Both the position numbers and the translations under genes were made by a program. Source: an uncultured Sphingobacteriaceae bacterium (GTDB taxonomy: Bacteria > Bacteroidota > Bacteroidia > Sphingobacteriales > Sphingobacteriaceae). From it: a stretch of 43,612 bases of DNA. The notes under the pieces were generated by a model, which was given only the letters and a program-made list of their open reading frames with translations, was not told the origin of the DNA and did not search any database. Positions 12,940 to 37,104 of this stretch are shown in pieces. The stretch lies in assembly GCA_946887045.1 (NCBI GenBank), contig CAMPKC010000038.1:1-43612 (forward strand), written 5' to 3'. Within the stretch, counting starts at the first letter, position 1. Every line of letters starts with the position of its first letter.

Positions 12940-13044
12940 GTTAGAAAAATAGGTTCTAATTATTTTAATTTATATAATTCTGGCTAAATTAGAAATTATA
13001 CGGTAAAAACCAGCAGATTGAATTTACAGCTCCGGTAATTTTTT

Positions 13045-13060
13045 ACGCAATCGTTCCCGG
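13045..13060 (+). promoter_or_regulatory. Pectin-regulon operator candidate, site A
   Basis: ACGCAATCGTTCCCGG is identical over 16 bases to 34957-34972 and closely matches 27042-27057 and both arms at 37025-37060. It is in the divergent promoter region of KDPG aldolase and KDG kinase. The CGCAAnCG core resembles operators of LacI-family regulators such as the PurR box, so a LacI-type regulator is one possibility. None is encoded in the window. Confidence 0.6.
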
Positions 13061-13112
13061 TGATTTTTAATGTTTTTCTTAGTGTAAAATTACTTACTAT
13101 CTAACTTTAATG

Positions 13113-13120
13113 TATTTTTG
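13113..13120 (+). promoter_or_regulatory. Candidate -7 box for KDG kinase
   Basis: TATTTTTG fits the Bacteroidota housekeeping -7 consensus TAnnTTTG and lies 49 bp upstream of the start codon. I see no good TTTG -33 element at the usual spacing, which would suit a promoter that needs an activator. Confidence 0.4.
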
Positions 13121-13169
13121 CCCATCAAAACAAAAATTATCAATCTTCTTTAAAGTATAATAATACACT

Positions 13170-14195
13170 ATGTCAAAAAAAGTAGTTACCCTGGGAGAAA
13201 TCATGTTGCGCTTGTCAACTCCGGGATTTGAGCGTTTTGTTCAGAGCGATAGCTTTGATGTAACTTATGGTGGTGGCGAAGCAAACGTTGCTGCTGCTGT
13301 AACAAATTATGGACTAAATGGCGTTTTTGTTTCTAAGGTTCCTGATAATGCCATCGGACAATCAGCAATTAATCACCTTCGTCGTTATGGTGTAGATACA
13401 CAATATGTGGCGAGAGGTGGAAAACGATTAGGGATTTACTTCCTTGAAACTGGTGCTTCTGCCAGAGCTTCTCAGGTTATTTATGACCGTGCCGACGCAG
13501 CGATCGCCGAAGTAGATGCCTCTGAATTTAATTGGGATGCTATTTTCGAGGGCGCAGACTGGTTCCACACAACAGGTATCACTCCGGCTTTAAGCGACAG
13601 AGCTGCTGAATTAACTTTAGCTGCGTTAAAAGCTGCAAAAGCAAAAGGAATTACTACCAGTATTGACCTTAACTACCGTAAAAAACTTTGGAGCAAAGAA
13701 AAAGCTCAAAAAGTTATGACTGAACTTTGCCAGTATGTTGACGTTTGTATCGGTAACGAAGAAGATGCTGAAACTACTTTAGGATTTAAAAGCGCTGGTA
13801 CCGACATCACAAAAGGTGAATTAAACCTTGACGGGTACAAAGATGTTTTTCAACAAATGAAAGCGAAGTTTAACTTTAAATATATAGCGTCAACTTTACG
13901 CGAAAGCCATAGTGCATCTGATAACGGATGGTCTGCTTTGGTGTATGACGGAAACGAATTCTATCACAGTAAGCAGTACGAGGTTCGTATTGTTGACCGT
14001 GTTGGTTCAGGCGACTCATTCGCTTCTGGTTTCATTTATGGTTTAGTTACAGGTTTGCCAATGGGCGAAGCAGCTGAATTTGGTGTTGCTGCTTCTGCGT
14101 TGAAACACACAATTCCTGGCGACTTAAATCATGCTACACTTTCTGAAGTTTCGACCTTGATGAAAGGTGATGCTTCCGGACGGGTTCAAAGATAA
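13170..14195 (+). CDS. kdgK: 2-dehydro-3-deoxygluconokinase (KDG kinase), PfkB family
   Basis: A 341-residue cytoplasmic ribokinase/PfkB-family kinase that phosphorylates KDG to KDPG, the step where the galacturonate and unsaturated-uronate branches meet. It opens with VVTLGEIMLRLSTPG and the substrate-binding YGGGEANVA motif. The anion-hole and catalytic signature DRVGSGDSFASG has Asp282 as the catalytic base. SIDLNYRKKLW is also shared by KDG kinases. The gene is monocistronic, bounded by a divergent regulatory region and a strong terminator at 14229-14265. A paralogue with the same key motifs lies at 17966-18976. This copy is better supported as the true KDG kinase because it faces the aldolase gene. 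Confidence 0.9.
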   Translation: MSKKVVTLGEIMLRLSTPGFERFVQSDSFDVTYGGGEANVAAAVTNYGLNGVFVSKVPDNAIGQSAINHLRRYGVDTQYVARGGKRLGIYFLETGASARASQVIYDRADAAIAEVDASEFNWDAIFEGADWFHTTGITPALSDRAAELTLAALKAAKAKGITTSIDLNYRKKLWSKEKAQKVMTELCQYVDVCIGNEEDAETTLGFKSAGTDITKGELNLDGYKDVFQQMKAKFNFKYIASTLRESHSASDNGWSALVYDGNEFYHSKQYEVRIVDRVGSGDSFASGFIYGLVTGLPMGEAAEFGVAASALKHTIPGDLNHATLSEVSTLMKGDASGRVQR

Positions 14196-14228
14196 TACCC
14201 TGCCCTTGTAGGGAGAATATAAAAATGT

Positions 14229-14265
14229 ATCCGTCTTGCTATATTAGCGGGACGGATTTTTTTTA
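14229..14265 (+). terminator. Rho-independent terminator of kdgK
   Basis: ATCCGTCTTGCTA (14229-14241) pairs with TAGCGGGACGGAT (14245-14257) through 13 positions including two G-U pairs. An eight-T run follows on the plus strand. Confidence 0.9.
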
Positions 14266-14286
14266 ACCAATTAAATTATTAACAAA

Positions 14287-14736
14287 ATGATTATAGATTC
14301 TTTAGAGAACGCTGATAAATATAACAGTCTGCACCCACTTTTTGCACCTGCATTTGAGTGGCTAAAAAGCCAGAACCTGGATGCCCTTGAAGACGGAACT
14401 TATCAAATTCAAGATGGACTAAAAGCAATCATGAGTGCAAAGGGCGGCAAAACCGTAGCCGAATCACTTGAAAAATTTGAGTGTCACCAAAAAGCGATTG
14501 ATATTCAACTTTGCATAAGCGGCACAGAGACTATTGGTTGGAAACCTATTTCAAAATGCCAAAACTTCAAAGCAGAATACAATCCTGAAAAGGATGTTAC
14601 TTTCTACAACGAAACTCCGGATATGTATTTTCAGTTGACGGACAATCAATTTGGAATTTTCTTCCCGGAAGACGTGCATGCGCCGATGATTGGTGAGGGG
14701 GTAATTAAGAAAATAGTGGTGAAGGTTAAGATATAA
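14287..14736 (+). CDS. YhcH/YjgK/YiaL-family cupin protein
   Basis: This 149-residue cytoplasmic protein matches the YhcH/YjgK/YiaL family (also the EbgC-like beta subunit family), a single-domain cupin found beside sugar-acid and sialic-acid catabolic genes. Visible family features are the acidic and His-bearing strand FECHQKAIDIQL, the ISGTETIGW strand and the C-terminal metal-site segment FPEDVHAPMIG. Its exact reaction is not established for most members; an aldose anomerase or isomerase role is usually proposed. It follows kdgK on the same strand but behind a strong terminator, so it is probably transcribed separately or by read-through. In this setting it may act on a keto-uronate or its anomers. 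Confidence 0.8.
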   Translation: MIIDSLENADKYNSLHPLFAPAFEWLKSQNLDALEDGTYQIQDGLKAIMSAKGGKTVAESLEKFECHQKAIDIQLCISGTETIGWKPISKCQNFKAEYNPEKDVTFYNETPDMYFQLTDNQFGIFFPEDVHAPMIGEGVIKKIVVKVKI

Positions 14737-14751
14737 AACACCCTGTATCCT

Positions 14752-14792
14752 AAATGTAAAAAGGAGCGCTTTTCGGCACTCCTTTTACATTT
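14752..14792. terminator. Bidirectional terminator between the YhcH-like gene and uxaA
   Basis: AAATGTAAAAAGGAG (14752-14766) pairs with CTCCTTTTACATTT (14779-14792) with one extra A, across a 12-nt loop. A/T-rich arms on both sides and the position between two convergent stop codons (14736 and 14809) fit a shared terminator. Confidence 0.85.
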
Positions 14793-14808
14793 CAATAGAT
14801 CTTTTCTT

Positions 14809-16299
14809 TTATAGTGTCACCCCAGTCTTAAAGATCGCGATTTCACGGAAACCGTTTTTCTCATGATGCGCCTTTTCGCCATTGGCAACCCTTAAAATTT
14901 TATCTACAAATTCTTCCAAAGCTTCATCAAAGGTTTTATCCTCAGCTAAAGGTCCGGCATTGTAATCAATCCAATGAGGTTTCTTGGTGGCTAATTCAGT
15001 ATTTGTGGCAATTTTCAAAGTTGGGATAAAGCTACCAAATGGTGTTCCCCGACCGGTCGTAAATAACACAATATGACATCCTGAGGCGCCTAATGCTGTT
15101 GTAGCAACAAGGTCGTTACCCGGAGAAGAAAGAAGGTTTAAACCTTTTTTGTGTAGTCTCTCTCCGTATTTCAACACGTCAACTACGTTCGCAATACCAC
15201 CTTTTTGAGTACAGCCTAAAGATTTATCCTCTAAGGTTGAAATACCACCCGCTTTATTTCCCGGTGAAGGATTCTCGTAAATCGGTTGTTTCTGATCGAT
15301 GAAATATTGTTTAAAGTCGTTGATCAGGTGAACGGTTTTTTCAAACACTTCAGGATTAACGCAACGATCCATCAAAATCTGCTCTGCACCAAACATCTCC
15401 GGAACCTCTGTCAAAATAGTTGTTCCACCCTGGCTAATTAACCAATCAGAAAAATAACCAACCAAAGGATTCGCTGTGATACCTGATAAACCATCAGATC
15501 CACCGCATTTCAATCCTACTCGCAATTCAGAAACCGGAATAGGTTCGCGTTTATCTTTGCGGATCTCTTCATAGATCTCTTTTAAGAGAGCTTTAGAATC
15601 TTCAACTTCATCTGAGGTACTCTGGCTCGAAAGGAACTTGATCCGGCTCTTGTCGAAATCACCTAACGATGCCATAAACTCGTCGATCTTGTTGTTTTCA
15701 CATCCTAATCCCAAAACTAAAACACCACCTGCATTTGGATGCAACGCGATATCTCCAAGAATTAAACGGGTGCTCTCATGATCATCACCCAATTGAGAAC
15801 ATCCGTAGCTATGTTTAAATACTTCAATTCCGTCAATATCTGTCGGGTTTTCTTCTGCTTTAAACTCGCGGATAATCTGCTCTGCAATTCCGTTTACACA
15901 ACCAACTGTTGGAACAATCCAAATCTCATTACGGATACCCACATCTCCGTTTTTGCGACGGAAACCATTGAACGTTAGGTTGCGGTTTGGATGAGGAAGT
16001 TCATCCAGCAAGCTCGGATTGTAAGAGTAATCAAATACGTCCTTAAGGTTAGTTTTTACATTTTGAACGTGAACATGCTCTCCAAGTTTGATATCTGCAA
16101 TTGCATGACCGATTGGATAGCCGTATTTGATAATATCGGTTCCGCTTGGTATTTCGTCGATCGCGATTTTATGCCCCTTCTCAATATCGTTAAGAACAAT
16201 TACGCGTTTTCCATCAACCTCAATTACATCTCCCACACTGAAATCTTTCAATGCTATGATCACATTATCCCTGGAATGTATTTTAATAAACTCTTTCAT
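14809..16299 (-). CDS. uxaA: Altronate dehydratase
   Basis: A 496-residue cytoplasmic dehydratase that converts D-altronate to KDG, the last step of the galacturonate isomerase pathway. Length and sequence follow the enterobacterial UxaA closely. An N-terminal SAF domain (about 1-95) opens with IKIHSRDNV. The C-terminal D-galactarate dehydratase/altronate hydrolase domain has RRKNGDVGIRNE, the cysteine motif YGCSQLGDDH (Cys167), GLGCENN, CGGSDGLSGI, EVPEMFGAEQ, SPGNKAGG, GCTQKGG and the terminal FKTGVTL. It is the last gene of the minus-strand uronate group, 91 bp after uxaB and ending at a shared terminator. The 550-residue protein at 20495-22147 is a distinct paralogue, so this gene is the orthologous altronate dehydratase. 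Confidence 0.94.
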   Translation of the reverse strand: MKEFIKIHSRDNVIIALKDFSVGDVIEVDGKRVIVLNDIEKGHKIAIDEIPSGTDIIKYGYPIGHAIADIKLGEHVHVQNVKTNLKDVFDYSYNPSLLDELPHPNRNLTFNGFRRKNGDVGIRNEIWIVPTVGCVNGIAEQIIREFKAEENPTDIDGIEVFKHSYGCSQLGDDHESTRLILGDIALHPNAGGVLVLGLGCENNKIDEFMASLGDFDKSRIKFLSSQSTSDEVEDSKALLKEIYEEIRKDKREPIPVSELRVGLKCGGSDGLSGITANPLVGYFSDWLISQGGTTILTEVPEMFGAEQILMDRCVNPEVFEKTVHLINDFKQYFIDQKQPIYENPSPGNKAGGISTLEDKSLGCTQKGGIANVVDVLKYGERLHKKGLNLLSSPGNDLVATTALGASGCHIVLFTTGRGTPFGSFIPTLKIATNTELATKKPHWIDYNAGPLAEDKTFDEALEEFVDKILRVANGEKAHHEKNGFREIAIFKTGVTL

Positions 16300-16390
16300 G
16301 TATTATATATATTTCTTACGAACAGTAAATCAGCAATTTACCCTACAAAAGTAAGATAAATCAAATTGACTTAAGTTTTTAAAATGTTAA

Positions 16391-17836
16391 TTAAACAGTT
16401 TCAATTGCTTTTGCCATCCCGTTGTTTACGATGTTCGCTAAATGCTTCGTAACAGCTGAGGTTAAGCCTTCAACCTTGGTCAAATCCATCTTCCAGTTTT
16501 TCTCGAAAGACAAAACCTCTACCACCACAGCCTCTAAAGACTCGTCGCTGCCATCGTATTTAGACCAGGCATTTTTCAATAATTCTAAAAGAACGGCATC
16601 ATCGTTAAGAGAAATCGCTTCTTCGCCACGTTTACCTTTATAGAAAGCAATAGTTGCAGCTAATGAAAACGAAAGTTTTTGAGGAATAGCGCCTTTCCTA
16701 TTTTTATACTCTAAAAGTGATGGGAGTACCCGGGTTTCGAACTTAGACCATGAGTTTAACGAAATACTCATTAGTAAGTGTTTGATGTATGGATTTCTGA
16801 AACGATCAATCACATCATTCGCGAATTGCTCTAACTCTTCTTTAGGAAGGTCTAAAGTTGGAATTATCTCATCAAAAATAGCCTCTTTAATAAACTTACC
16901 TACAACCTCGTGCTCAACAGATTCTCTAACAGTATCTAAGCCATATAAATATGCCACCGGAACCAAAACAGTATGCGCGCCATTAAGTATCCTTACTTTA
17001 CGTGTACGATAAGGAGTCATGTCCTTCACATATTTAACATCAAGGCCAATTGAAGGGAATTGAAGCTCTTGCTGAAGCGATTCTGGCGCTTCGATTACCC
17101 ATAAGTGGAAATGTTCGGCCTCAACAACCTGTTTATCTTCATAGCCAAGTTCTTCAGTAATTTCAGAAATTCTCTCTCTTGGATAACCGGGAACGATACG
17201 ATCTACCAAAGTGTTGCTGAATGTACATGCAGTATTTAACCAGTTTACAAACTCTTCGTCAAAGCTCCATTTTGCAGCTAGCTGAAGAACGATGCGTTTA
17301 AGATTATCCGCATTTTTTTCGATTAACTCGCAAGGAATGATATGCACTCCTTTAGAAGCATCACCATTAAAAGTTTTGTAACGATGATTTAACCAAACCG
17401 CAAGCTTTGCTGGATACGAATTTGGTGGAGTAGCGGTCGGAACATCGTTTTCATCGTAAGCAATACCCGCTTCGGTAGTATTAGAGATGATGTAACGCAT
17501 TTCAGGATTTTCCGCAGTTTTCAAGTATGCGTCAAAATCTACGTAAGGATTTATTCCTCTGCTGATAATGTCGATAGTTTCATGCGTACTTTCAGGCTTG
17601 CCATTTTTTAAGCCCCGAAGGTAAAGTGTATACAAGCCGTCTTGCTCATTAAGCATGTTAACCATACCATTAGCGATTGGCTGAACTGCTACGACCGATC
17701 CATTAAACTTTCCGCTTTTGTTTAACTCGTTGAAAAACCAGTCAACAAATGCGCGAAGGAAATTACCTTCTCCAAACTGAAGGATTTTTTCAGGATACTC
17801 TTTGTATCCTGTGTAAGTGGTTTTATTTAGTTGCAT
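16391..17836 (-). CDS. uxaB: Tagaturonate reductase (altronate oxidoreductase)
   Basis: A 481-residue member of the long-chain mannitol dehydrogenase family that reduces D-tagaturonate to D-altronate with NADH in the cytoplasm. The N-terminal nucleotide-binding stretch is [16 protein letters not shown] (about residues 18-33). The middle shows ISNTTEAGI, which is family-typical, and the C-terminal catalytic region contains [20 protein letters not shown] and [20 protein letters not shown], with the conserved Lys-Asn-His arrangement of this family. The length is normal for UxaB. Position between uxaC/kinase and uxaA supports the assignment over fructuronate reductase (UxuB). Confidence 0.93.
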
Positions 17837-17931
17837 ATTTTAAAAAATTCAAAAATTTAAATTCAAAAGGTAAAAGGCCTAACAAAAAACCTTCACCTAC
17901 TTTGCGGATATACCTTGTAAGTCTTGGTTTC

Positions 17932-17951
17932 GGTTGGTGTCCCTACCAACC
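17932..17951. repeat. Short inverted repeat between the second kinase and uxaB
   Basis: GGTTGGT (17932-17938) and ACCAACC (17945-17951) form a 7-bp inverted repeat with a 6-bp spacer in the 129-bp gap upstream of uxaB. No T-run follows on the minus strand, so it looks more like an operator or mRNA processing hairpin than a terminator. Confidence 0.4.
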
Positions 17952-17965
17952 AGCATCAAATCACA

Positions 17966-20373: not shown

Positions 20374-20407
20374 TACAATTTATTGCTTTTTAATGGAGAT
20401 GAAGCTG

Positions 20408-20447
20408 TCATGAGTCTTACTCTGTATTTCTGAGTGCAATCTCATGA
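20408..20447. repeat. Nested inverted repeat upstream of uxaC
   Basis: TCATGAG (20408-20414) pairs with CTCATGA (20441-20447), enclosing a smaller ACTC/GAGT pair. It sits 35-75 bp upstream of the uxaC start in the gap after the uxaA-like gene. It may be an operator or a processing hairpin; there is no following T-run. Confidence 0.35.
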
Positions 20448-20494
20448 TCGTTTCATTATTTATACTATCGCTAATGGGTAATTCATTTTAAAAC

Positions 20495-22147: not shown

Positions 22148-22216
22148 TTTAAGATTCTATAAACCGTAACTTAGTTTGCATTCTTAGCAATTTAAAAGAA
22201 TAAACTTATCTAAATA

Positions 22217-25191: not shown

Positions 25192-25200
25192 CTGTAAAGT

Positions 25201-26868: not shown

Positions 26869-26990
26869 AATTTATTAAAATTGATACTATGGTGATTTTC
26901 TCTGTTTTTTTAGCACAAATTCAATCTTAATAAAGATTTACTGCTGTGAGGATTATGCTTAGTGTATTTCAGAGAGAATGAACTCAACAA

Positions 26991-26998
26991 CAAGTTTA
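26991..26998 (-). promoter_or_regulatory. Candidate -7 box for the GH28-GH105-PL10 unit
   Basis: On the minus strand the bases read TAAACTTG, one mismatch from TAnnTTTG, 123 bp upstream of the GH28 start. The gap to operator site B is 43 bp, as in the other operator-box pairs. Confidence 0.35.
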
Positions 26999-27041
26999 GC
27001 GAGTTTAGAACAAAAAGAGGTAGGTTTTGGGAAATAAAGTT

Positions 27042-27070
27042 ATGCAATCGTTCCCGAGAACGTTTTCGTA
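27042..27070 (+). promoter_or_regulatory. Pectin-regulon operator candidate, site B
   Basis: ATGCAATCGTTCCCGA (27042-27057) matches sites A and C at 14 of 16 positions. Here the continuation gives AAtCGTTC-CCGA-GAACGttTT, a palindrome with a reverse half-site ending at about 27066. It lies about 175 bp upstream of GH28, with its GCAA end facing GH28. Confidence 0.58.
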
Positions 27071-27157
27071 AGAAGGTATTTACAAGAGGCTGTCGGATAA
27101 ACAGACTATACAGCGCTCCGCAGTTTTTTCATACGCTGTCATATCAAAATCAGAAAG

Positions 27158-27202
27158 GCAAAAAAGAATGCATCAATACCAGCGGCATTAATGCATTCTT
27201 TT
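27158..27202 (-). terminator. Terminator of the SusC/SusD unit
   Basis: AAAAGAATGCATCAAT (27162-27177) pairs with ATTAATGCATTCTTTT (27187-27202) with one G-U pair and a 9-nt loop. It begins 9 bp after the SusD stop codon. T-rich arms end the hairpin on both strands. Confidence 0.82.
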
Positions 27203-27210
27203 CATTCTGC

Positions 27211-29289
27211 TTAATTCTGTGAGAACCCGTACCCATTGGTGATCAGCCCATTTGATTTAGAAATGGTTTCTGAGGATAATGGAAGAAGATAACGGGGAGG
27301 ATCTCCTGCCTGATAGCCTTTAAAAATATTAGAAGTGTACTGATCAGTGTATTGAACAATTTTAGAACCCCAGTCAGTTTTTACATAACCCTGAGCAACC
27401 AAGGCCGCCGCCTCAACGCCATTGGGATCAATATAGCGATAAAGCCCTTTTATAGCGAGATTTCGTTTGCCCGAAGAGGCAGTAAATGCAGGCCAGGCGT
27501 CGCTGTTTCCTCGCCATCCGGGGCATTTTACAGGATAGGCTGGATCGGTTTCGTCTACGTTGCACTGCGTTGTTAACATCTTGTTAATTCCAAAATCTAC
27601 CATGTTAACAGCCTTCACGTAGATAAAATTAGAAATTGTATTACCATTTGGAAAAGTGTAGTATCCATTCGTCTTTAAACCATTTACCATCGCTAATTGA
27701 GCGTTCTTAATCTGTTGTATTTTTTCAGGCATTTTCCCGGTACGGATCAGATCGTATCGACGTAGCCCTTCGCCTGCAAACTCAAGTTTACGCTCCTGCT
27801 GTATGGCCTCTTTCAAAGCATCACCAGATAAAGCAGCGATGTAATTAGTAACCTGCGTAGTTTGGTCTGCGGCCAGAAATGCTCTGCTTCTCACTTTTTG
27901 CAATTCAGCTTTTGCCAATCCTTCCTCGCCTAGTTCGGCATACACTTCAGCAAGCATTAAAATCACATCAGCCATTCGCATTTGTGGCCAATTAACACCC
28001 GACTGCCGCTGTGATGCGATATAAGGGTTCGGCATCCGGCTTTCATCCCATTTATTATTAGGTAAGCCACCTAAATCACGCGATCCCGGAGCAAAAGAAA
28101 TTATTCTTTCCGAAGCACTTCCTGAGTTTGCTGTAACCGTTACAGTTACGTCTCTGCGTAAATCTTTAGGATTGTACTCCCCATAATAAAATGAAGCATG
28201 CATACGGCTTTGTCCGTATGACTTATTTGGGTATGCATTTTTGCTGCCACCACCCGAAGGGCGTCCGAATGCGTACGGGCGTTCTGAAAATTGACCCTGA
28301 GTCTCACCCACTTCGTATAATGATTCAGGGCTAACCACTAAATTCATATTATATTGAAAGTTGTACTGGAAGGGATTGTTAAACGCGGCTCCCCGCGGGT
28401 CGCTGGTAATTAACATAGCACTTCCCGGATTTTCTACAACTGCTTTTAGATACGTTTTTGCAATTTCATAATACTTCTTGTAATCTGTACGGCGCACATA
28501 TTTAGCGTTCCATTTTACACCGCCAATTTGATCGAACGTTACATTTCCGTAATTAAAATCTGTTCTGCGTAAGCCATACCCACCGGCAAACAAAGCCATT
28601 TTGCCGATTAAGCCCTGGGCGAAGGTTCTTGAAAAGCGTTCGGCATTGATACCACTCTGACCAAGGCGATACATTAAGGGCTCAACCCTTTGTAATTCCG
28701 AAATTTGAAAATCGTAGATCTCGTCACGCGAAACCAACGTAGCGCTGTCTGTCTGACTCGTTGAAATGATGGCTTCTTTGAAATGAGGCACATCGCCAAA
28801 ATAGCTAATAAGATTGTGATACGAATTTGCACGGAATACCGCTGCCTCACCATAAAGCTGGGTCCATGCATTGGGCGTGCCGGCCGCCACTGCACTTTGG
28901 TATTCGGGCTTCTTAGCTATCGCTTCCATAATAAGATTGGAACGGTTCGCTATTTTGTAAAGATTTGCCCAGGCACTAACAGAGTTCGAATAATCGATAG
29001 AAATTTCCGAAGCATATAGCCCTTCCGGGATATGGCGAAGCTGAGCATCGTAGCTTTCAGGGTGCGTTTCTGAATCAGAACCGACTACATCCAGATCATA
29101 GAACAAACCATTATTAGCTCCTCTCCAAATTTCATAATTACCAACCATCACTTTATAGGCCTCATCAGGAGAAGAGAATACGAAATCCTGATCAACGCTG
29201 GAAGGTGATTGTACATCCAGAAAATCTTTCTGGCAAGATGCGGTGATTAGGATCAAAGCACCTGAAATGATATATATTAATTTTTTCAT
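27211..29289 (-). CDS. SusD/RagB-family outer-membrane glycan-binding lipoprotein
   Basis: A 692-residue surface lipoprotein that captures pectic oligosaccharides and caps the SusC transporter. The ATG at 29289 gives a lipoprotein signal, MKKLIYIISGALILITASC, with the lipid-modified cysteine at residue 19. An ATG at 29313 would add eight mostly basic residues and is possible. SusD features are the DFLDVQSPSSVDQDFVF start, tetratricopeptide-like helices (LYKIANRSNLIMEAI and LYGEAAVFRANSYHNLISYFGDVPHF), and the C-terminal WPQMRMADVILMLAEVYAELG and LQQERKLEFAGEGLRRYDLIRTGK-type blocks. It follows SusC by 43 bp and ends at a terminator. Substrate specificity for pectin fragments is inferred from the surrounding genes. 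Confidence 0.93.
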   Translation of the reverse strand: MKKLIYIISGALILITASCQKDFLDVQSPSSVDQDFVFSSPDEAYKVMVGNYEIWRGANNGLFYDLDVVGSDSETHPESYDAQLRHIPEGLYASEISIDYSNSVSAWANLYKIANRSNLIMEAIAKKPEYQSAVAAGTPNAWTQLYGEAAVFRANSYHNLISYFGDVPHFKEAIISTSQTDSATLVSRDEIYDFQISELQRVEPLMYRLGQSGINAERFSRTFAQGLIGKMALFAGGYGLRRTDFNYGNVTFDQIGGVKWNAKYVRRTDYKKYYEIAKTYLKAVVENPGSAMLITSDPRGAAFNNPFQYNFQYNMNLVVSPESLYEVGETQGQFSERPYAFGRPSGGGSKNAYPNKSYGQSRMHASFYYGEYNPKDLRRDVTVTVTANSGSASERIISFAPGSRDLGGLPNNKWDESRMPNPYIASQRQSGVNWPQMRMADVILMLAEVYAELGEEGLAKAELQKVRSRAFLAADQTTQVTNYIAALSGDALKEAIQQERKLEFAGEGLRRYDLIRTGKMPEKIQQIKNAQLAMVNGLKTNGYYTFPNGNTISNFIYVKAVNMVDFGINKMLTTQCNVDETDPAYPVKCPGWRGNSDAWPAFTASSGKRNLAIKGLYRYIDPNGVEAAALVAQGYVKTDWGSKIVQYTDQYTSNIFKGYQAGDPPRYLLPLSSETISKSNGLITNGYGFSQN

Positions 29290-29332
29290 TTTGAATTTCT
29301 TTTTTCGTGTCATCGATTATTTCTTCAGATTA

Positions 29333-32300
29333 TTAAAACTGAACATTTAAGCCGAATGTAAATGAACGAGCGCGTGGATATGATCCCCAGTCAAGGCCGG
29401 TAGTCGGATATTGAGCTCCTCCCTGACTTGTACTTGTATTCACATCAGGATCTAAGCCGGAGTAATTAGTCAATATAAATGCATTATACACCGAGCCGTA
29501 CAAGCGAAGTTTACTTACCCCTATTCTATTTAACACTTTTGCAGAGAGGTTATAACCCAAAGTAATATTATTAAGTCGGAGATACGAACCGTCCTCAATA
29601 CCCAAAGTAGAGGTAACCGGATTCTCATGATACGGAAGGAAAGTCGTTGCGTTGGCATTTAAAGCATTTAAAGCAGTGGGGTCAGTTACATTAACCAGTT
29701 GCCCGTTTTGGATATCATAAATCTTGTATGATGAAGACAAATAATCTAAACGATTTTTATATAATCCGTCTTCTTTGCTACCGTAAAAAGCAGAAAGATA
29801 ACTTGCGTTGTAAATTTCATTACCGAAACTCCAGTTAAAGTCAAATCTGAAATCCAGCTTCTTAAAATTACCGGCAAGATTAAAACCCCCGGTATGTTTA
29901 GGGTTCATATCACCAATAATAGAAACATCGCTTTCATTTACGACGCCATCTCCATTCAGATCTTTATACTTGATAACACCAGGGTAAGCCACTTGCCCAC
30001 CTGGTTTATTGGCGGTGGTACCGTAAACAGTACCAATGATCCCCGACCCAATATCCGGAACACCTGCTTTTAACGTGTAAATACCGTTAGCATAGTTAAA
30101 ATCATCAACAGTATACCAATTGTCATAAGTGTATCCACGCACCTGGCCAACCGGTTTACCTTCTACAAGAATATAGTCCCCCGTGTTTGGCTGGGTCATC
30201 GATGAACCCCATTGAGTTTTATACAGTCCGTTTACACCCTCCGCAAGTTCATCTACCTTTCCTTTGTTTACGTTCACGTTGAAATTGGTATTGAGATTAA
30301 AATTTTTAGACCGGATTATATCAACTCCAAGTCCCAATTCAACACCTCTGTTACTGGTGCTACCTACGTTATCGTAAGTAGCAGAGAACCCGCTGATCGC
30401 TGAAATTGACGTTAGCATTAACAGATCCTTAGTAGAATTCTTATATAAATCTAATGATCCGTATACTCTATTGTTTAAAAAGCCAAAGTCAAAACCCAAG
30501 TTCCTAGTAATGGTAGTTTCCCATTTAAGCTCAGGGTTGGCTATCGTCGCTTCAGGAGAATACGCAACCTGTTGCTGTTCGTTTACAGAATATCTCGTCG
30601 GCCCGTCTGATTGCCAGTTCATTTTCCATAAATTGGCACTAATTCCATCATTACCTACAGAACCATAAGAAAGTCTGAGCTTTAAATTAGAGATCCAATT
30701 CACATCTTTCAGGAAGTTTTCATCAGAAACTCTCCAGCCTATAGCCGCTGCCGGAAAATACCCCCAGCGATTGGTAGGGGCGAACCTTGAAGAACCATCT
30801 GCACGAAACGTCGCAGTGAACAAATATTTGTCGGACAATGTATAATTAGCCCTCCCAAAAAACGACAGCAAACGATTAGGTGTACCAGTGTTTGAACTAT
30901 AACCATAATTTGTAGTACTTGTACCTGTTAAGTATTGATCCATCATGGCAAAAGCCCGTTCTGAATCAAATGACGCCGGATAATAATTACCCCAGATATT
31001 TGTACCTTCAGAACCCGAATTCATAATTTCCTGCCCTGCGAGCAGGTTTAAACTATGACTTTTGCCCAGACCCTGTACATCGTAATTGAGAGTATTTGCC
31101 CATCGCAAATTCCAGCCTTGAGAGTGGCTGATTGAAGCATTTCCACTAAAGGTTTTATTTCCTGCGGCATCGAAATAATTATTATAAACCGCGCCTGACC
31201 ATGTATTTGATCTGTTCCAGTTAGTGTTTAAACCGAGATCCGATTTAGCACTCAGCCCTTTGAGTATAGTCCAGCCTAATGAAGTATTTGCCCGGAGTGA
31301 TCTGTTTGTGCGAACCGGAGTATAATCACTCATTCGGGCGACAGGGTTATATATATCCTGCAGAACCACGTCGTACAAACCTAACTGAGTATTTTTACTA
31401 TCATCTAATTCGCCCATCACATCGCTTGTAGCGATAGGTCTGAACCAATATGCTGTTGACAAGAGCGACCCGCGTCCGTTTGTCGTACTTTCATCTCCTA
31501 CCGACTTAATATTGGTAAAACGTGTATCTAAAGAGAGAGACAGGTCTTTAAATAGCTTTTGATCAAGTTTAAATGAAACGTTTGAACGCTTAAACTGTGA
31601 ATTTACTTTCATCCCATCCTCATCCATATGGTTAAGAGCAATCAGAAATTTAGTTTTTTCATTCCCGCTGCTGATATTTATGTTATGATTTTGAGAGAAT
31701 GAATTGCCATACGCTTCTTTTGAAAAATTCGTAGCAGCTACATTCTTATAATGGTTAATTCCTTCAGGATTGTTATAAGTGGCACTTGATGCGCCAATAC
31801 CCCACAATTTCTCCCAACCCTGAGCATACGAATTACTGATCGCCTTAGCATAACCCCAATTATAAGCCAGGTAATCATAAGCACTCATCGTTTCAAGGTA
31901 TTTAGTCGGCGAATTAAACTTAGCAAAGCCATCATAGCCAATTTTCAATTTTCCGTCCTTACCACTTTTGGTGGTTACGATAATAACTCCATTCGCACCA
32001 CGTGCTCCGTATATCGCTGTTGATGACGCGTCTTTTAAAACATCAATGCTTTCAATTAAATTAGAGGGTATATCATTTATTGAGCCAACAGGAAAACCAT
32101 CAACTATAAATAAGGGATCATTGCTTTGCGAAATAGATCCGCCACCACGTACTCGTATAGAAATTGCAGCATCCGGACGACCATCCTGACTTATAACATT
32201 TACACCAGGGAGTTTACCTGCCAATGCCTGGGCAGCGTTAGCTACCGGGGCCGACGCAATGTCTTCACCCGAAACAGAAGAAACCGCACCCGTTAGATCT

Positions 32301-32944
32301 CGTCTTTTAACAGTTCCATAACCAATTACAACCACCTCACTCAACTGGCTCGTGGCAGGATTAAGCACAACATTTAATCTGGCCTGGCCCGAAACTTTTT
32401 GCTCCACTGTTTCATACCCCAAATACGAAAATACAAGAATGGCGTTTTCGGGTGCCGTTATCGAATATTCGCCATCTATGTTGGTGGTCACCCCCTTGGC
32501 AGAACCCTTTATCTTTATCGTTACGCCAATTAATCCTTCTCCAGATTTGTCTGTCACTTTTCCATTTATTACGATATCCGAAAGTGATTCTTTCTTGTTA
32601 ATCGCAATAAGCTCATTATTAATAAACTGATAACTTAAGCCCGATCCTTTTAAAACTTCCTCTAAAGCTTCGTCAATACTGGCATCTTCCAGATTAACTG
32701 ATACTTTTTGCGTTATCTCACCAAGATTCTGATTATACAGAAACCTGTAAGACGATTGTTCCTCAATCTTGCTTATAGCTTCAGCAATGGCTGATTTCTT
32801 GACCTGAAGATTAATTTTACTCTGAGAAAACCCTGTTGCCGAAGCACTTATCGTAAACAGAAGTATCAGAATTGTGGTTAGGTTCATAATAAGAACAAAA
32901 TTTGAAGGGAACGATTTTCGGGAAATCGTTAAAAAACATTTCAT
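29333..32944 (-). CDS. SusC-type TonB-dependent transporter with N-terminal STN signalling domain
   Basis: A 1203-residue outer-membrane transporter for oligosaccharides. After a signal peptide (hydrophobic stretch ILILLFTISASATGFSQ), residues about 42-120 form a secretin/TonB short N-terminal (STN) domain, used to signal to FecR-type anti-sigma factors. A carboxypeptidase-regulatory-like domain follows (about 125-205, GKVTDKSGEGLIGVTI), then a TonB-box-like SEVVVIGYGT, the plug domain (VRGGGSISQSNDPLFIVDGFPVGSIN and the LKDASSTAIYGARGANGVIIVTTK signature) and a long beta-barrel ending in F-x-F-G-LNVQF. The start at 32944 gives a 19-residue extension before MNLTT; the ATG at 32887 is an alternative. 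The FecI/FecR pair directly upstream completes a trans-envelope signalling system. Confidence 0.95.
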   Translation of the reverse strand: MKCFLTISRKSFPSNFVLIMNLTTILILLFTISASATGFSQSKINLQVKKSAIAEAISKIEEQSSYRFLYNQNLGEITQKVSVNLEDASIDEALEEVLKGSGLSYQFINNELIAINKKESLSDIVINGKVTDKSGEGLIGVTIKIKGSAKGVTTNIDGEYSITAPENAILVFSYLGYETVEQKVSGQARLNVVLNPATSQLSEVVVIGYGTVKRRDLTGAVSSVSGEDIASAPVANAAQALAGKLPGVNVISQDGRPDAAISIRVRGGGSISQSNDPLFIVDGFPVGSINDIPSNLIESIDVLKDASSTAIYGARGANGVIIVTTKSGKDGKLKIGYDGFAKFNSPTKYLETMSAYDYLAYNWGYAKAISNSYAQGWEKLWGIGASSATYNNPEGINHYKNVAATNFSKEAYGNSFSQNHNINISSGNEKTKFLIALNHMDEDGMKVNSQFKRSNVSFKLDQKLFKDLSLSLDTRFTNIKSVGDESTTNGRGSLLSTAYWFRPIATSDVMGELDDSKNTQLGLYDVVLQDIYNPVARMSDYTPVRTNRSLRANTSLGWTILKGLSAKSDLGLNTNWNRSNTWSGAVYNNYFDAAGNKTFSGNASISHSQGWNLRWANTLNYDVQGLGKSHSLNLLAGQEIMNSGSEGTNIWGNYYPASFDSERAFAMMDQYLTGTSTTNYGYSSNTGTPNRLLSFFGRANYTLSDKYLFTATFRADGSSRFAPTNRWGYFPAAAIGWRVSDENFLKDVNWISNLKLRLSYGSVGNDGISANLWKMNWQSDGPTRYSVNEQQQVAYSPEATIANPELKWETTITRNLGFDFGFLNNRVYGSLDLYKNSTKDLLMLTSISAISGFSATYDNVGSTSNRGVELGLGVDIIRSKNFNLNTNFNVNVNKGKVDELAEGVNGLYKTQWGSSMTQPNTGDYILVEGKPVGQVRGYTYDNWYTVDDFNYANGIYTLKAGVPDIGSGIIGTVYGTTANKPGGQVAYPGVIKYKDLNGDGVVNESDVSIIGDMNPKHTGGFNLAGNFKKLDFRFDFNWSFGNEIYNASYLSAFYGSKEDGLYKNRLDYLSSSYKIYDIQNGQLVNVTDPTALNALNANATTFLPYHENPVTSTLGIEDGSYLRLNNITLGYNLSAKVLNRIGVSKLRLYGSVYNAFILTNYSGLDPDVNTSTSQGGAQYPTTGLDWGSYPRARSFTFGLNVQF

Positions 32945-33019
32945 ACTTTTGATTTAGGTTAAATTAAATAATCCAACTTGTTGATGGGTTGGGGGTTAGT
33001 TGATTTTAATCTGATTATA

Positions 33020-33049
33020 ACGGGGAATGCGCCAACATTCTCCGTTTTT
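33020..33049 (+). terminator. Terminator-like hairpin between FecR and SusC, in plus-strand orientation
   Basis: ACGGGGAATG (33020-33029) pairs with CATTCTCCGT (33036-33045) with one mismatch, and a seven-T run follows on the plus strand. All nearby genes lie on the minus strand, where the hairpin is followed by no T-run. It may instead be a leader hairpin of the susC mRNA, or stop antisense transcripts. Confidence 0.5.
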
Positions 33050-34156
33050 TTATTTTACACCGGATGCATTTTTTTCATGGGATTTAATACGTATTTCTCG
33101 ACCTTGAATTTTAAAGTCAAATGATGCTACTTTTTTCAAAGCACTGAACGCCTGGTCGACCGTTTCCTTCTCAAAAGATCCATTGAAGGTTAGAGCCCGC
33201 ACACTGTCATCTTCAAACTCAATCGATACATTATACCAACGCTCAAGTTTTTTAGCTAGATCTTCAAATCTCTCAGCTCTAAATTCAACCCGGTTATAAA
33301 TCCAGGCAGTTTCGATTCGCTCTTTTTCCTGAAGTTTTGTATCCAGACTGATTAACTCATAAGCAGCTTTCGCCTCAGTACTTATCTTTGACTGGGCAGT
33401 TTTAACCGGGACAATCAATTTTTGATTCGGCGCCAGAAAAACTGAAGGTCTGGATTTATTCGTTTTGTCTGTCACCTCAATTTTGCCATGCAAAAGTGTT
33501 GTTTCGATATTTTTGTCCTCCGCATAGCATTTTACGTTAAAAGCCGTACCATGTACTTTAATAGCGATTTTTCCGGCATGCACAATAAAAGGGCGGCCCT
33601 TTTGCTTTACTACATCAAAAAATGCCTCCCCGTCTAAACGGACTTCTCGGGTAGGTCCTGAAAATTCAAAATCGTAATATAATCTCGACCCGCCATTCAA
33701 CCAAACAGTTGTACCATCGGGTAAAAGCACTTTGCTTCGGCTCCCATACTGGGCTGCAACAATCTGCTCCGGTTTAGATGCAACTGAAGGACTCGGTTTG
33801 TTGAGGAAAAATATAGCAGCTAAAGCTACTGAGGCTGCATAAGCAAGTATCAAACGCTTCGAAAAGATTTTCCTGAAAACTGATATTGACTTGGTTTCGG
33901 ACAGATCAACCGCGTGTTGCCGTTCAATTTCAGCTTTATTGATTATTTTTTTAAAAAGAAATCGCTCTTTTTTTTCTTCGTCTAAAACATCATCCTCTGG
34001 TAAGTTCTTATTCCAGAGCTGCTTTAACATACTGAATTGTTGGTTTAAATAGGGATCGCTATTAAGCAAGTCATTTAATTCGCTCTGTTCATCAGCTGAG
34101 ATTTCGCCACTCAAGGAGCGACCCATCATTATCCATATTTTGTTGTTACTGTCCAT
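33050..34156 (-). CDS. FecR-family anti-sigma factor
   Basis: A 368-residue inner-membrane regulator. A cytoplasmic N-terminal region (about 1-95) is followed by one membrane helix (about 99-118, LILAYAASVALAAIFFL). The periplasmic FecR domain contains AQYGSRSKVLLPDGTTVWLNGGSRLYYD, VRLDGEAFFDV and FIVHAGKIAIKVHGTAFNVKCY. A C-terminal DUF4974-type domain lies at about 285-360 (VEFRAERFEDLAKKLERWYNVSIEFED). It should hold the neighbouring sigma factor inactive until the STN domain of SusC signals that substrate is bound. It lies 63 bp after the sigma factor gene and 105 bp before susC. Confidence 0.93.
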   Translation of the reverse strand: MDSNNKIWIMMGRSLSGEISADEQSELNDLLNSDPYLNQQFSMLKQLWNKNLPEDDVLDEEKKERFLFKKIINKAEIERQHAVDLSETKSISVFRKIFSKRLILAYAASVALAAIFFLNKPSPSVASKPEQIVAAQYGSRSKVLLPDGTTVWLNGGSRLYYDFEFSGPTREVRLDGEAFFDVVKQKGRPFIVHAGKIAIKVHGTAFNVKCYAEDKNIETTLLHGKIEVTDKTNKSRPSVFLAPNQKLIVPVKTAQSKISTEAKAAYELISLDTKLQEKERIETAWIYNRVEFRAERFEDLAKKLERWYNVSIEFEDDSVRALTFNGSFEKETVDQAFSALKKVASFDFKIQGREIRIKSHEKNASGVK

Positions 34157-34219
34157 TAAGCTTTATTGAGCGCTTTTTTAATGAAGACAGTAAATCGAAA
34201 AAAATCTACTAAAACTTTT

Positions 34220-34819
34220 TTACTTTTTTTGAGGGAGGAGAAATCCCTTCGGAGATTTGATATTTAAAGCAGCACATAGGCGTTTAACCGCTATCGCCAT
34301 TTGAGCGTCTATGGTATTAACAGATATATTCAGAATTTCAGCAATTTCTTTGTATCGTAATTCATCCTCTCTTACCATCTGAAAAATTAACCTGCACCTT
34401 GGAGGAAGAGAATCTATCGCACTTTGAACTGATTGCATAAGTTCGGAGGTAACTAAAAGATCATGAGGAGTATGATCTTTTGAATGCAGGTCAAATTCTG
34501 AAACTTCTAATGATTGTGTAACTATTCTTCGGGCCTCGTATGACAGGGCATTTAACGACTGGTGCTTTATTGCTGTGTACAAGTAAACATTTAGATTCTG
34601 TATTTCAACCACATCTTCCCGTTTACACCATAATTTCACAAACACATCTTCTACCACCTCTTCAGAAAGCTCTTTAGATTTGGTAAAAGTTTGTGAAAAT
34701 GCTCTTAATCTTTTATGATAGTAGGCATATATTTTCTCAAAGGCTTGTTCATTACCTTCCGATACCAGTTTTTGATATTCGCCTAAGCAATCAAGAAAAG
34801 GTTTCTTATGCAAAATCAT
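34220..34819 (-). CDS. ECF (FecI-like) RNA polymerase sigma factor
   Basis: A 199-residue extracytoplasmic-function sigma factor of the Bacteroidota FecI-like type. Region 2 covers about residues 20-90 (FEKIYAYYHKRLRAFSQTFTKSKELSEEVVEDVFVKLW) and region 4 covers about 130-185, with the helix-turn-helix LRYKEIAEILNISVNTIDAQMAIAVKRL. It probably directs transcription of the susC/susD unit when released by the adjacent FecR protein. Operator candidate site C lies about 140 bp upstream, which would place the sigma factor under the control of the same regulator as the pectinase genes. Confidence 0.93.
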   Translation of the reverse strand: MILHKKPFLDCLGEYQKLVSEGNEQAFEKIYAYYHKRLRAFSQTFTKSKELSEEVVEDVFVKLWCKREDVVEIQNLNVYLYTAIKHQSLNALSYEARRIVTQSLEVSEFDLHSKDHTPHDLLVTSELMQSVQSAIDSLPPRCRLIFQMVREDELRYKEIAEILNISVNTIDAQMAIAVKRLCAALNIKSPKGFLLPQKK

Positions 34820-34907
34820 AATTAAATAAATGCTCTAAATTCGATTTAAAAGAGGCAAATCAATGCCGGATGATTTGACTTAAAGAACTGGTTAGCTTCT
34901 CTAACAA

Positions 34908-34915
34908 CAATGTTA
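34908..34915 (-). promoter_or_regulatory. Candidate -7 box for the sigma factor unit
   Basis: On the minus strand the bases read TAACATTG, one mismatch from TAnnTTTG, 89 bp upstream of the sigma factor start. The gap to operator site C is 41 bp. Confidence 0.33.
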
Positions 34916-34956
34916 CAAATTTGATCATTGCTTTTCAAATTTTCTATCAGGAATTT

Positions 34957-34972
34957 ACGCAATCGTTCCCGG
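34957..34972 (+). promoter_or_regulatory. Pectin-regulon operator candidate, site C
   Basis: ACGCAATCGTTCCCGG is identical to site A and is followed by CCGG, making a CCGGCCGG palindrome at its right edge. It lies about 140 bp upstream of the sigma factor start and just beyond the end of the esterase gene, with its GCAA end towards the sigma factor. Confidence 0.6.
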
Positions 34973-35012
34973 CCGGAGAGAACAAGCACAATTATTCATA
35001 ATACGACAGTAT

Positions 35013-35939
35013 CTATGGCCGTGTAAGATTTTTAACAAAGTTCATTTCCATTAGCCAGCTCTCACATAAGGCAGTCCATTGGTCAGTTGATCCGGGATTA
35101 TTTCGTAATGCTATGGCATGGCCGCCATAGGGAAAGGTATGAAGACTGGCAGAAATGCCTTTGTCAACCAATGCCGAATAATATAGCACGCTATTTTTAA
35201 CATTAACAGACTTATCGTTAAAGGCATGCACAATAAAAGCCGGCGGTGTTTCTGCGCTGACTCTGTAGTTTGGAGAATAGTCTTTCATCTTTTCTACGGT
35301 CGCGTTTTCTCCCAGTAAATTCTTCCGGCTTCCCAGATGGGGAAAATCAATCAGATCTATTACCGGTGATACAAGGATTGTAAAGTCGGGGCGGAAAGAG
35401 ATTCTATCCAACTTATCGCCTATCAACGAATAATCATCTTTGATTGTACTGCTTAAGGCTGCGAGGTGCCCGCCTGCGGATGAACCCTGAATCCCTACTT
35501 TATTTGAATCAATGCCCCATTTGGCCGCATTGGCGCGAATTAATTTTATAGCTCGCTGCGCATCCTGTAAAGGACCCTTTTCCCGTTCCTTCAGGTCGGA
35601 TGAATTTGGAAGGCGATAATTTAATACAAAGGCACTTATTCCCATCGTATTAAACCATTTTGCCAGCTGCGTTCCGCTGATGACGTATGCAAGACGTTCA
35701 TATCCGCCACCGGGACAAATAAGCACCGCTGCGCCTTTATTCTCCTGCGAGGATGGGAAATAGGCATAAAATCCGGGGGTAGCTACTCTAAAAATCCGCT
35801 CGTTTGAAACGCTGTCTTTGAAGTCTAAGCCTTTTGAGTTCGGCATTTTTCCTTTAGTCCACAACGGGAAAAATTCTTGTGCCTGCGCCGATAAAGCGAA
35901 TATTGAAAGAAGAAATGCCAGATAGGTTTTTTGAATCAT
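35013..35939 (-). CDS. Exported alpha/beta-hydrolase esterase (acetyl esterase/lipase type)
   Basis: A 308-residue serine esterase with a signal peptide ending near ALSAQA (residue 20). It shows the oxyanion-hole segment ICPGGGYERLAY, the nucleophile elbow GSSAGGH with Ser154, an aspartate in HAFNDKSVN and the histidine in PYGGHAIAL, the layout of the BD-FAE/acetyl-esterase group. In a pectin locus it most likely removes acetyl groups from galacturonate or rhamnogalacturonan, like acetylesterases found beside other pectinases. The family also includes feruloyl and xylan acetyl esterases. It follows the pectinesterase gene on the same strand. Confidence 0.85.
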   Translation of the reverse strand: MIQKTYLAFLLSIFALSAQAQEFFPLWTKGKMPNSKGLDFKDSVSNERIFRVATPGFYAYFPSSQENKGAAVLICPGGGYERLAYVISGTQLAKWFNTMGISAFVLNYRLPNSSDLKEREKGPLQDAQRAIKLIRANAAKWGIDSNKVGIQGSSAGGHLAALSSTIKDDYSLIGDKLDRISFRPDFTILVSPVIDLIDFPHLGSRKNLLGENATVEKMKDYSPNYRVSAETPPAFIVHAFNDKSVNVKNSVLYYSALVDKGISASLHTFPYGGHAIALRNNPGSTDQWTALCESWLMEMNFVKNLTRP

Positions 35940-35963
35940 AATTTGAAATTTAAGGGGCCGAAT

Positions 35964-36105
35964 TTATTGAAGGATATTAAGCTTACATAAACTGCTAAGC
36001 GGGTCCCAACCGGGAAAAACATGCTGTATTGAAATAGATTTAACCTCCTCATCAGACAGCTGCTTTGCCCAGCTTACTCTGGAGCGCGCATCAGCGCCAG
36101 TGCCC
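35964..36105 (-). pseudogene. Out-of-frame C-terminal tail of the pectinesterase
   Basis: In the +1 frame relative to the pectinesterase, the sequence after the CCC run at 36103-36105 continues the family C-terminus: GTGADARSRVSWAKQLSDEE and onward to a TAA at 35964. Dropping one base from that run joins YSEHKNYG to GTGADARSR and gives a full-length protein of about 326 residues. This is either a real frameshift or a sequence error. Confidence 0.75.
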
Positions 36106-36942
36106 ATAATTTTTATGTTCTGAATATCGTACCGTTTTAAAGTTTTCTGTTTCATTCCAGTTCGCCCAACCATCAGACATTATATGCTTATCAATATAGC
36201 AAAAGACAAAGGAAACATTTGAGTAGAGTCTCCATGGCCGGCCTAAAGAAACACTCCGGAGGGCACTGTCTCCGGTTAATTTGCAATCGTAAAAAACAAA
36301 TCCAAAAGGATGAGATTGAGGCGTTGAAGCAGCTGTAACATGAGAGTTTTTTTTACTATGGATGTGGCATTGTTCGAACCAAACGGTTGCCGATCCAAAT
36401 ATAAAATCAGTTGTTCCTTCGATATAACAGTTTTTATAATATTGTCTGCTGTTATCTCCGTTAACAAACAGAATATCCTGATTGCCAAGTACGCGGCAAT
36501 CGAGGAATAGAGCTTTGTCGCCCCGAACATCTAAAGCTACCGCCTGGCCTGCGGTAAACCCGGCATCATTGCGGAATGTAATATTTTTGGCCGAGAAATT
36601 ATCAGCGTTTATTTGAAAGCTGTAAGAATTATGGGTATTAACCGGTCCCACCCTGGGCGACACGATGCCCGGATGATCATCATAAGCAAGAATAGTCCTG
36701 AACTTATCCTGTCCAATTAAGGTCACGAAATTCTTTTGAGCAACAAGAAGTAATTTCTCTTTATAAAATCCATTCTTAATGAAAATCACAAATTCCTTTT
36801 TGTTACCAACCGGAACCGCATCCAGTGCCTCCTGAACTGTTTTAAAATTCCCTGACCCATCTTGCGCTACCACTATTCGCTTCGCCTGAGCGGCAATGAA
36901 AATCAAATTAAAAAAGAGAGACAGTAAAATGAGTTTTTTCAT
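36091..36942 (-). CDS. Pectinesterase (CE8), frameshifted near its 3' end
   Basis: As read, 283 residues. The enzyme removes methyl esters from homogalacturonan so that pectate lyases can act. A signal peptide (about 1-20, ending FIAAQA) is followed by the beta-helix domain. The catalytic set is complete: Gln133 in GQAVAL, Asp156 in GNQDILFV, the nucleophile Asp179 in GTTDFIFG, and Arg235 in LGRPW. The frame then ends at YSEHKNYGHWR, whereas family members continue NYGxGA and about 45 more residues. That tail is present in the next frame (35964-36105). The truncated product keeps the active site but loses the C-terminal strands and helix. It is divergent from the PL1 lipoprotein gene across a region with a double operator. 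Confidence 0.87.
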   Translation of the reverse strand: MKKLILLSLFFNLIFIAAQAKRIVVAQDGSGNFKTVQEALDAVPVGNKKEFVIFIKNGFYKEKLLLVAQKNFVTLIGQDKFRTILAYDDHPGIVSPRVGPVNTHNSYSFQINADNFSAKNITFRNDAGFTAGQAVALDVRGDKALFLDCRVLGNQDILFVNGDNSRQYYKNCYIEGTTDFIFGSATVWFEQCHIHSKKNSHVTAASTPQSHPFGFVFYDCKLTGDSALRSVSLGRPWRLYSNVSFVFCYIDKHIMSDGWANWNETENFKTVRYSEHKNYGHWR

Positions 36943-36973
36943 TTTTTCAAAACTAAAATTTCAGACAGGCACA

Positions 36974-36981
36974 CAAGATTA
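36974..36981 (-). promoter_or_regulatory. Candidate -7 box for the pectinesterase unit
   Basis: On the minus strand the bases read TAATCTTG, one mismatch from TAnnTTTG, 32 bp upstream of the start. The gap to the left arm of operator site D is 42-43 bp. Confidence 0.37.
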
Positions 36982-37024
36982 AAAAAGATTTTGATTACTA
37001 ATCAATCCATTAAGAATAAATCTA

Positions 37025-37060
37025 TGCAAACGTTGCCGGAACTTTCCGGGAACGTTTGCA
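37025..37060. promoter_or_regulatory. Pectin-regulon operator candidate, site D (inverted pair)
   Basis: The left arm TGCAAACGTTGCCGGAA (37025-37041) and the right arm TTCCGGGAACGTTTGCA (37044-37060) are inverted copies differing at one of 17 positions, with a 2-bp spacer. Each arm matches sites A-C. The pair sits between the divergent pectinesterase and PL1 genes, with one GCAA end facing each gene. No T-run follows, so it is not a terminator. Confidence 0.68.
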
Positions 37061-37104
37061 CACTTTTTAATGGCAAAATCCATACGTGAAGGACTCCCTT
37101 TTTG

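Follow-up and report, generated by a model that had tools for sequence, protein, structure and literature searches.

A 16-bp operator is repeated ahead of the pectin genes in a stretch of 43,612 nucleotides from an uncultured Sphingobacteriaceae bacterium (GenBank assembly GCA_946887045.1, contig CAMPKC010000038.1), which is called the window below. Its orientation, spacing and gene neighbourhood in related genomes suggest that it is probably a LacI/GalR-family site, and that the cognate regulator would act as a class-I-like activator of a pectin and galacturonate regulon. The window encodes a pectin pathway with pectinesterase, pectate lyase, GH28, GH88/105, PL10 and rhamnogalacturonan lyase. 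It further encodes SusC/SusD with a FecR and extracytoplasmic function (ECF) sigma factor pair, as well as UxaA, UxaB, UxaC, KdgK and KdgA.

Operator copies and promoter boxes in the window

Six copies of the operator were found in the window. Shuffled sequence gave an expectation of 0.25, and none of 100 shuffles reached six. All copies are located outside the open reading frames (ORFs) of at least 100 amino acids and are thus intergenic; a hand sum from the ORF list puts about 7% of the window outside the main genes. The copies occupy four intergenic regions, each preceding pectin genes. An earlier reading, made from the sequence alone, had described five copies ahead of the KdgA/KdgK, GH28, ECF sigma factor, pectinesterase and pectate lyase genes. 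All five are present and intergenic at these places. The count itself was incomplete, as a sixth copy overlaps copy B in inverted orientation.

Operators A (13045..13060, forward strand) and C (34957..34972, forward strand) have the same sequence and match ACGCAATCGTTCCCGG exactly, as had been claimed. Operator A lies between kdgA and kdgK, with its strong arm and T-tract pointing to kdgA, and operator C precedes the ECF sigma-factor gene. Of the other copies, B, D and D' are the close variants that had been described. The strong copy B (ATGCAATCGTTCCCGA, 27042..27057, forward strand, two mismatches, position weight matrix score 23.5) precedes the GH28-GH105-PL10 genes, with the strong arm toward GH28. 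It is overlapped by the weaker, inverted B' (27054..27069, reverse strand, three mismatches), and both together form a 28-bp dyad, as in relatives. Operators D (ATGCAAACGTTGCCGG, 37024..37039, forward strand) and D' (GTGCAAACGTTCCCGG, 37046..37061, reverse strand) have three mismatches each and form a divergent pair, inverted to each other with a 22-bp offset. Operator D faces the pectinesterase gene and D' the pectate lyase gene, so that each gene has its own correctly oriented operator. The inverted copies are shifted against each other by 12 bp in the B pair and by 22 bp in the D pair, values that differ by about one helical turn.

Spacing was taken from the promoter box to the operator dyad centre. 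Boxes resembling a -7 element and matching TANNNTTG exactly were located on the reverse strand for the GH28 unit (TAAACTTG, 26991..26998, 58 bp from the centre of B), the ECF gene (TAACATTG, 34908..34915, 56 bp from C) and the pectinesterase gene (TAATCTTG, 36974..36981, 57 bp from D). The pectate lyase gene has the box TATTTTTA with one mismatch (37105..37112, forward strand, 58 bp from D'). These four boxes had been predicted, and they lie 43, 41, 42 and 43 bp from the site (at 26991, 34908, 36974 and 37105). Their position was borne out, while the proposed sequence TAnnTTTG is better written TAnnMTTG. Operator A has boxes on both sides. A weak box for kdgA, TATAATTT (12993..13000, reverse strand), with one mismatch to TANNNTTG, is found 59 bp from the dyad centre, and a canonical box for kdgK, TATTTTTG (13113..13120, forward strand), 55 bp from it on the opposite side.

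Spacing and regulon in related genomes

The relatives used first were chosen by SusD: a Niabella metagenome-assembled genome, Filimonas zeae, Sphingobacterium shayense and Pelobium manganitolerans. Family draws were taken from Chitinophagaceae, which contains F. zeae, and Sphingobacteriaceae, which contains P. manganitolerans. Several strong matches in the four relatives precede GH28, pectinesterase, SusC/D and uronate gene units. A genome search allowing one mismatch was too noisy to show enrichment, and exact cores with reversed controls were used instead. The exact core YGCAAWCGTTNCCGG gave 318 matches in 133 of 294 Chitinophagaceae genomes, while the reversed pattern matched 28 times, in 24 genomes. 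The consensus of 84 distinct intergenic sites consists of a T-rich tract, an A, YGCAAWCGTTnCCGG and a degenerate nAACGAT. The operator is thus an imperfect palindrome with a central CG around the junction of AWC and GTT, and a good inverted second copy is present in 33 of the 84 sites.

The distance between operator and box was analysed in both families. In Chitinophagaceae, the side faced by the strong arm (63 stretches) contained 24 one-mismatch TAnnTTTG boxes at 55-59 bp, against 3.0 expected. On the side not faced (46 stretches) there were four, against 2.7 expected. Written out, the boxes of the facing stretches are TAGACTTG, TAAAATTG and similar sequences. A recount with TANNNTTG in this family placed the box in 15 of 46 facing stretches and in 1 of 40 on the other side; shuffles had a mean of 0.32 and a maximum of 3. 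Perfect TAnnTTTG on the non-faced side was slightly above shuffles as well, with six at 45-74 bp compared to about one.

As an independent test, 251 Sphingobacteriaceae genomes were searched with a composite pattern of the operator, 30-60 bases and TANNNTTG. The composite was detected in 95 genomes, and the reversed control gave four matches in four genomes. Among 150 composite rows listed, 93 had a spacing of 57-59 bp, 49 of 46-48 bp and 3 of 67-68 bp; the 57-59 bp pair occurs in 58 of the 90 genomes listed. Exclusion of near-copies left 113 rows, and removal of similar spacers reduced these to 78 non-redundant pairs. Here 57 pairs are at 57-59 bp, 39 of them at exactly 58 (p = 6e-34, chance being a spread over 31 positions). 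Smaller peaks were observed at 46-48 bp (13 pairs) and 67-68 bp (3 pairs), and the other pairs are one or two rows each at 43, 52, 53 and 64 bp. None of the 78 was found at 49-51, 54-56 or 60-63 bp. The peaks are separated by 10-11 bp, that is, one helical turn. The fixed spacing put forward for the window therefore recurs in both families, with peaks in helical phase.

Position 5 of the box is A or C in 93% and T in 4% of the 57 pairs. In gene upstream regions at large, by contrast, T is favoured there and TAnnTTTG is the enriched form, with 28 sense and 14 antisense occurrences in 141 regions. No TTG stands out at -33 in the 57-59 bp composites. The 46-48 bp class, one helical turn nearer, is seen at loci L323-L325 and L329-L334. 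Four of its downstream genes were scanned and encode GH28 (L325, L331) and GH43 (L329, L333).

The sites were then read for the genes behind them. From the gathered loci 70 distinct composite stretches were collected, and the first downstream gene was scanned for 66; the other four were left out, since their locus showed no downstream gene or they fell within an ORF. These first genes encode TonB plug/SusC proteins (30), GH28 (16), pectinesterase (5), GH88 (4), GH43 (2) and ECF sigma factors (2), besides 20 right-handed beta-helix proteins that overlap with GH28. Operators also precede uronate catabolism genes, namely kdgA/kdgK and units of GH28-GH105-UxaB-UxaA and UxaC. The order kdgA, operator, kdgK-yhcH recurs at locus L326, where the strong arm is directed toward kdgK, and L327 and L328 agree with it as judged by gene size and order. 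The genes listed behind the motif in relatives are thus those of a pectin and galacturonate regulon.

Conservation of the system throughout the phylum was not upheld. In a phylum draw the composite was found in 14 of 395 genomes. The 57-59 bp spacing was seen in five of these (four Chitinophagaceae and G004), in addition to one match inside an ORF (G563). Because matches are few and those with correct spacing fall nearly all into Chitinophagaceae and Sphingobacteriaceae, the system looks confined to these two families at the sensitivity used.

The LacI-family gene beside the operator

A LacI-family gene was found divergent across the operator site in three of the four first relatives. LacI proteins of three loci (L046, L037 and L042) contain PF00356 with Peripla_BP domains. 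Their nearest solved relatives are CcpA and PurR. When three LacI proteins were compared with the NCBIfam equivalogs (CcpA, PurR, CytR, RbsR, GalR and others), none reached the cut-off, the best score, 217 bits, falling short of a required 382.

High-scoring LacI orthologues are present in 66 of 147 Chitinophagaceae genomes, in two cases as fragments. Of 79 orthologue loci, 59 have the operator upstream: 23 of 30 Sphingobacteriaceae loci and, in two Chitinophagaceae sets, 20 of 30 and 16 of 19. Among shuffled stretches it occurs in one of 1000. Among 20 lower-scoring lacI paralogues taken, the LacI start was located in 14, and 5 of these had the operator. Gene and site also occur together across genomes: the core was found in 48 of 66 Chitinophagaceae genomes with the orthologue versus 23 of 81 without (Fisher p = 9e-8), and the composite in 91 of 151 Sphingobacteriaceae genomes with it versus 4 of 100 without (p = 5e-22), both values uncorrected for kinship. 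A divergent lacI at a distance of 53-198 bp from the composite was noted in 20 Sphingobacteriaceae genomes chosen by visual inspection. The strong arm is directed away from lacI in all 11 neighbours with at least 55% identity to the reference LacIs. Among seven more distant LacI neighbours, five have this arm facing lacI itself, unlike the pectin clade.

Sites resembling CCGGnAACGTTnCCGG, with the identical half and centred on the junction of AAC and GTT, accompany three paralogous lacI genes; the LacI axis is therefore placed between AWC and GTT. The resemblance to LacI-type operators, pointed out by the sequence-only reading, is strengthened by these sites and by the adjoining LacI-family gene.

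In a tree, the orthologues group together in 80 rows, of which 60 have the operator. The fork of this group is weakly supported (87/52), and the next fork, which includes two long paralogue branches, is well supported (100/99). A one-to-one pairing of operator and regulator was not upheld, as a sister LacI clade has the operator too. Loci of that clade that share it are L283, L286, L290, L291 and L302; L151 falls into the clade (as L302), and L082 lies outside the tree. The lacI neighbours checked at L151 and L082 are DUF6807 (PF14100) genes.

Mode of control and relation to known systems

An upstream operator that keeps its orientation, its distance and its helical phase relative to a poor -7 box suits a class-I-like activator. 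The distance had already been said to fit an upstream activator, and the recurring spacing and its phase favour this. Activation, which we infer from the geometry, is the likely mode of control. A dimer would bind the 16-bp half with its axis between AWC and GTT, and it is often overlapped across CCGG by a second copy that is inverted and degenerate. With its T/A-rich flank on the promoter side, the operator, which is asymmetric, would hold the dimer axis about 51.5 bp away from the first T in the -7 box. In other Bacteroidota the promoter box sits at -7. With the box at this position, the dimer axis would be near -62 from the transcription start. From there the regulator could recruit RNA polymerase, in class-I fashion, to promoters with a poor -7 box (TAnnMTTG) and a poor -33 region, perhaps with a domain of the alpha subunit docked on the A-tract, from about -54 to -48.

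The 28-bp dyad as a single binding unit was set aside because operators A and C have, by eye, no good second half and the paralogue operators centre between AAC and GTT. Two dimers on the dyad are possible. A terminator was set aside as well on the order of the elements, the T-tract being 5' of the repeat.

In the window, the regulator would switch on kdgA (KDPG/KHG aldolase, PF01081, 12280..12939, reverse strand), the GH28 unit, the pectinesterase gene (PF01095, 36091..36942, reverse strand) and the pectate lyase gene (37151..38662, forward strand). The product of the last matches the solved pectate lyase 9buj_A (E = 7e-76) and has no Pfam match. The first gene behind operator B encodes the GH28 polygalacturonase-like protein (PF00295, 25201..26868, reverse strand). 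On the other side of operator A lies kdgK (pfkB-type sugar kinase, PF00294, 13170..14195, forward strand). In a second step, operator C may act on the genes for the ECF sigma factor and FecR-type anti-sigma factor behind it (33050..34819, reverse strand), and this pair in turn on the susD and susC uptake pair (27211..32944, reverse strand; STN domain on SusC). The region 29333-34819, with an STN-bearing SusC, FecR/ECF and an operator before the sigma gene, hints at such a two-step SusC/D cascade. At the window end, a KduI-like ORF (43193-43498) aligns only with the C-terminal part of PF04962; its remainder may be past the end or frame-shifted.

Taken in full, the reading that we lean towards is a LacI-family protein serving mainly as a dedicated class-I activator of the whole regulon in the two families, which would work through the strictly oriented and phased TAnnMTTG composite and in some species stand above an ECF/anti-sigma pair controlling SusC/D.

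Several observations weigh against a LacI-family activator at this operator. A scan of 26 window ORFs (of 37 with at least 100 amino acids, the remaining 11 being mostly overlapping frames) gave no LacI-type gene, in line with the sequence-only reading; the regulator would presumably be encoded elsewhere in the genome of the source bacterium. The one-mismatch search of the four relatives gave 47 matches against 32 in the control, which was higher in one genome (G002). Exact TANNNTTG at 56-59 bp is missing from 31 of the 46 usable facing sequences. Before redundancy was removed, the 46-48 bp class made up a larger share (49 of 150 rows), and five of the 150 rows fit no spacing peak. Furthermore, 26 of 112 sites are inside an ORF call, 20 of 79 LacI orthologues have no upstream operator, and the co-occurrence counts ignore kinship. 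Finally, five of the six members of the sister LacI clade have the operator, so that more than one regulator may bind it.

The same protein on the same operator could also repress: from about -62 it would exclude another activator, and an inducer would release it. LacI-family proteins are mostly repressors, and a fixed position could mirror overlap with the site of another activator. The lev operon is repressed by CcpA, which blocks LevR from an upstream site (PMC3463425, excerpted text). No second strongly conserved element was observed between operator and box, A/T-rich stretches aside, and strict orientation with 10-11 bp phasing suggests polymerase contact instead. The non-canonical boxes likewise fit activator-dependent promoters, and we consider repression unlikely. 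Ownership of the operator by another regulator class, for example a CRP- or AraC-type protein with lacI merely linked to pectin clusters, appears very improbable. The 28-bp dyad with CCGG in its middle does exceed the usual length of a LacI operator. However, the core is like LacI and PurR operators, the three paralogous lacI genes have sites with the identical half, and the presence of lacI tracks the composite across the 251 genomes. A repeat that arose by chance, or intergenic DNA shared by descent and without a regulatory role, would fit the sites inside ORF calls, and either is already contradicted by the window shuffles, the reversed controls and a spacing that is conserved between divergent spacers.

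Comparison with known systems places the LacI-family activator proposed here as follows. The PurR operator of Escherichia coli has an ACGCAA-CGTT core with a central CG. The present operator differs in its right half, GTTnCCGG, and in the A/T tract on one side, and PurR is a purine repressor. CcpA of Bacillus activates ackA, pta and ilvB from upstream cre sites in a helix-face-dependent manner (PMC3463425, excerpted text). It shares with the present system the LacI family, a site upstream of the core promoter and the dependence on helix face. In contrast, CcpA is a global carbon regulator working with HPr-Ser-P that mostly represses, whereas here one upstream geometry appears to be common to a whole pathway regulon. 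KdgR (BT0487) and UxaR (BT0824) of Bacteroides are predicted LacI-family regulators of glucuronate and galacturonate use (Ravcheev et al. 2013, PMC3878776; PMC4052901; both in excerpt). They resemble the present system in protein family and in their uronate catabolism genes, and the KdgR regulon also takes in a few periplasmic or extracellular proteins. They differ in being comparative-genomic predictions in Bacteroides, with the motif given only as a figure, and in that the excerpted text of PMC3878776 mentions neither spacing nor activation. The same excerpt assigns rhamnogalacturonan to HTCS_Rgu regulons of hybrid two-component systems (HTCS). HTCS, SusR and ECF/anti-sigma control of Bacteroidota loci likewise covers SusC/D and pectin lyase genes, yet with another protein family and operator, and the ECF gene of the window appears to lie downstream of a LacI-type operator. 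On LacI, the excerpted review PMC10766802 names repressors and CcpA. Among the literature matches listed, there was no report of this operator, its geometry or LacI-family activation of Bacteroidota polysaccharide loci. The regulon had been called undescribed; since LacI-type galacturonate regulons were predicted before for Bacteroides KdgR and UxaR (PMC3878776, excerpted text), this holds at most for the operator, the promoter geometry and the lineage. The proposed mode of action would be unusual.

Control of polysaccharide loci in Bacteroidota is usually attributed to hybrid two-component systems, SusR-type proteins or ECF sigma factors. If the reading is true, a LacI-family activator responding to a uronate signal in the cytoplasm would add a further, simple layer of control. 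The 16-bp operator with its fixed geometry is directly searchable, as the core in 133 of 294 and the composite in 95 of 251 genomes demonstrate. It would offer a compact pectin-responsive promoter module, and a natural test of upstream activation of the unusual Bacteroidota RNA polymerase.

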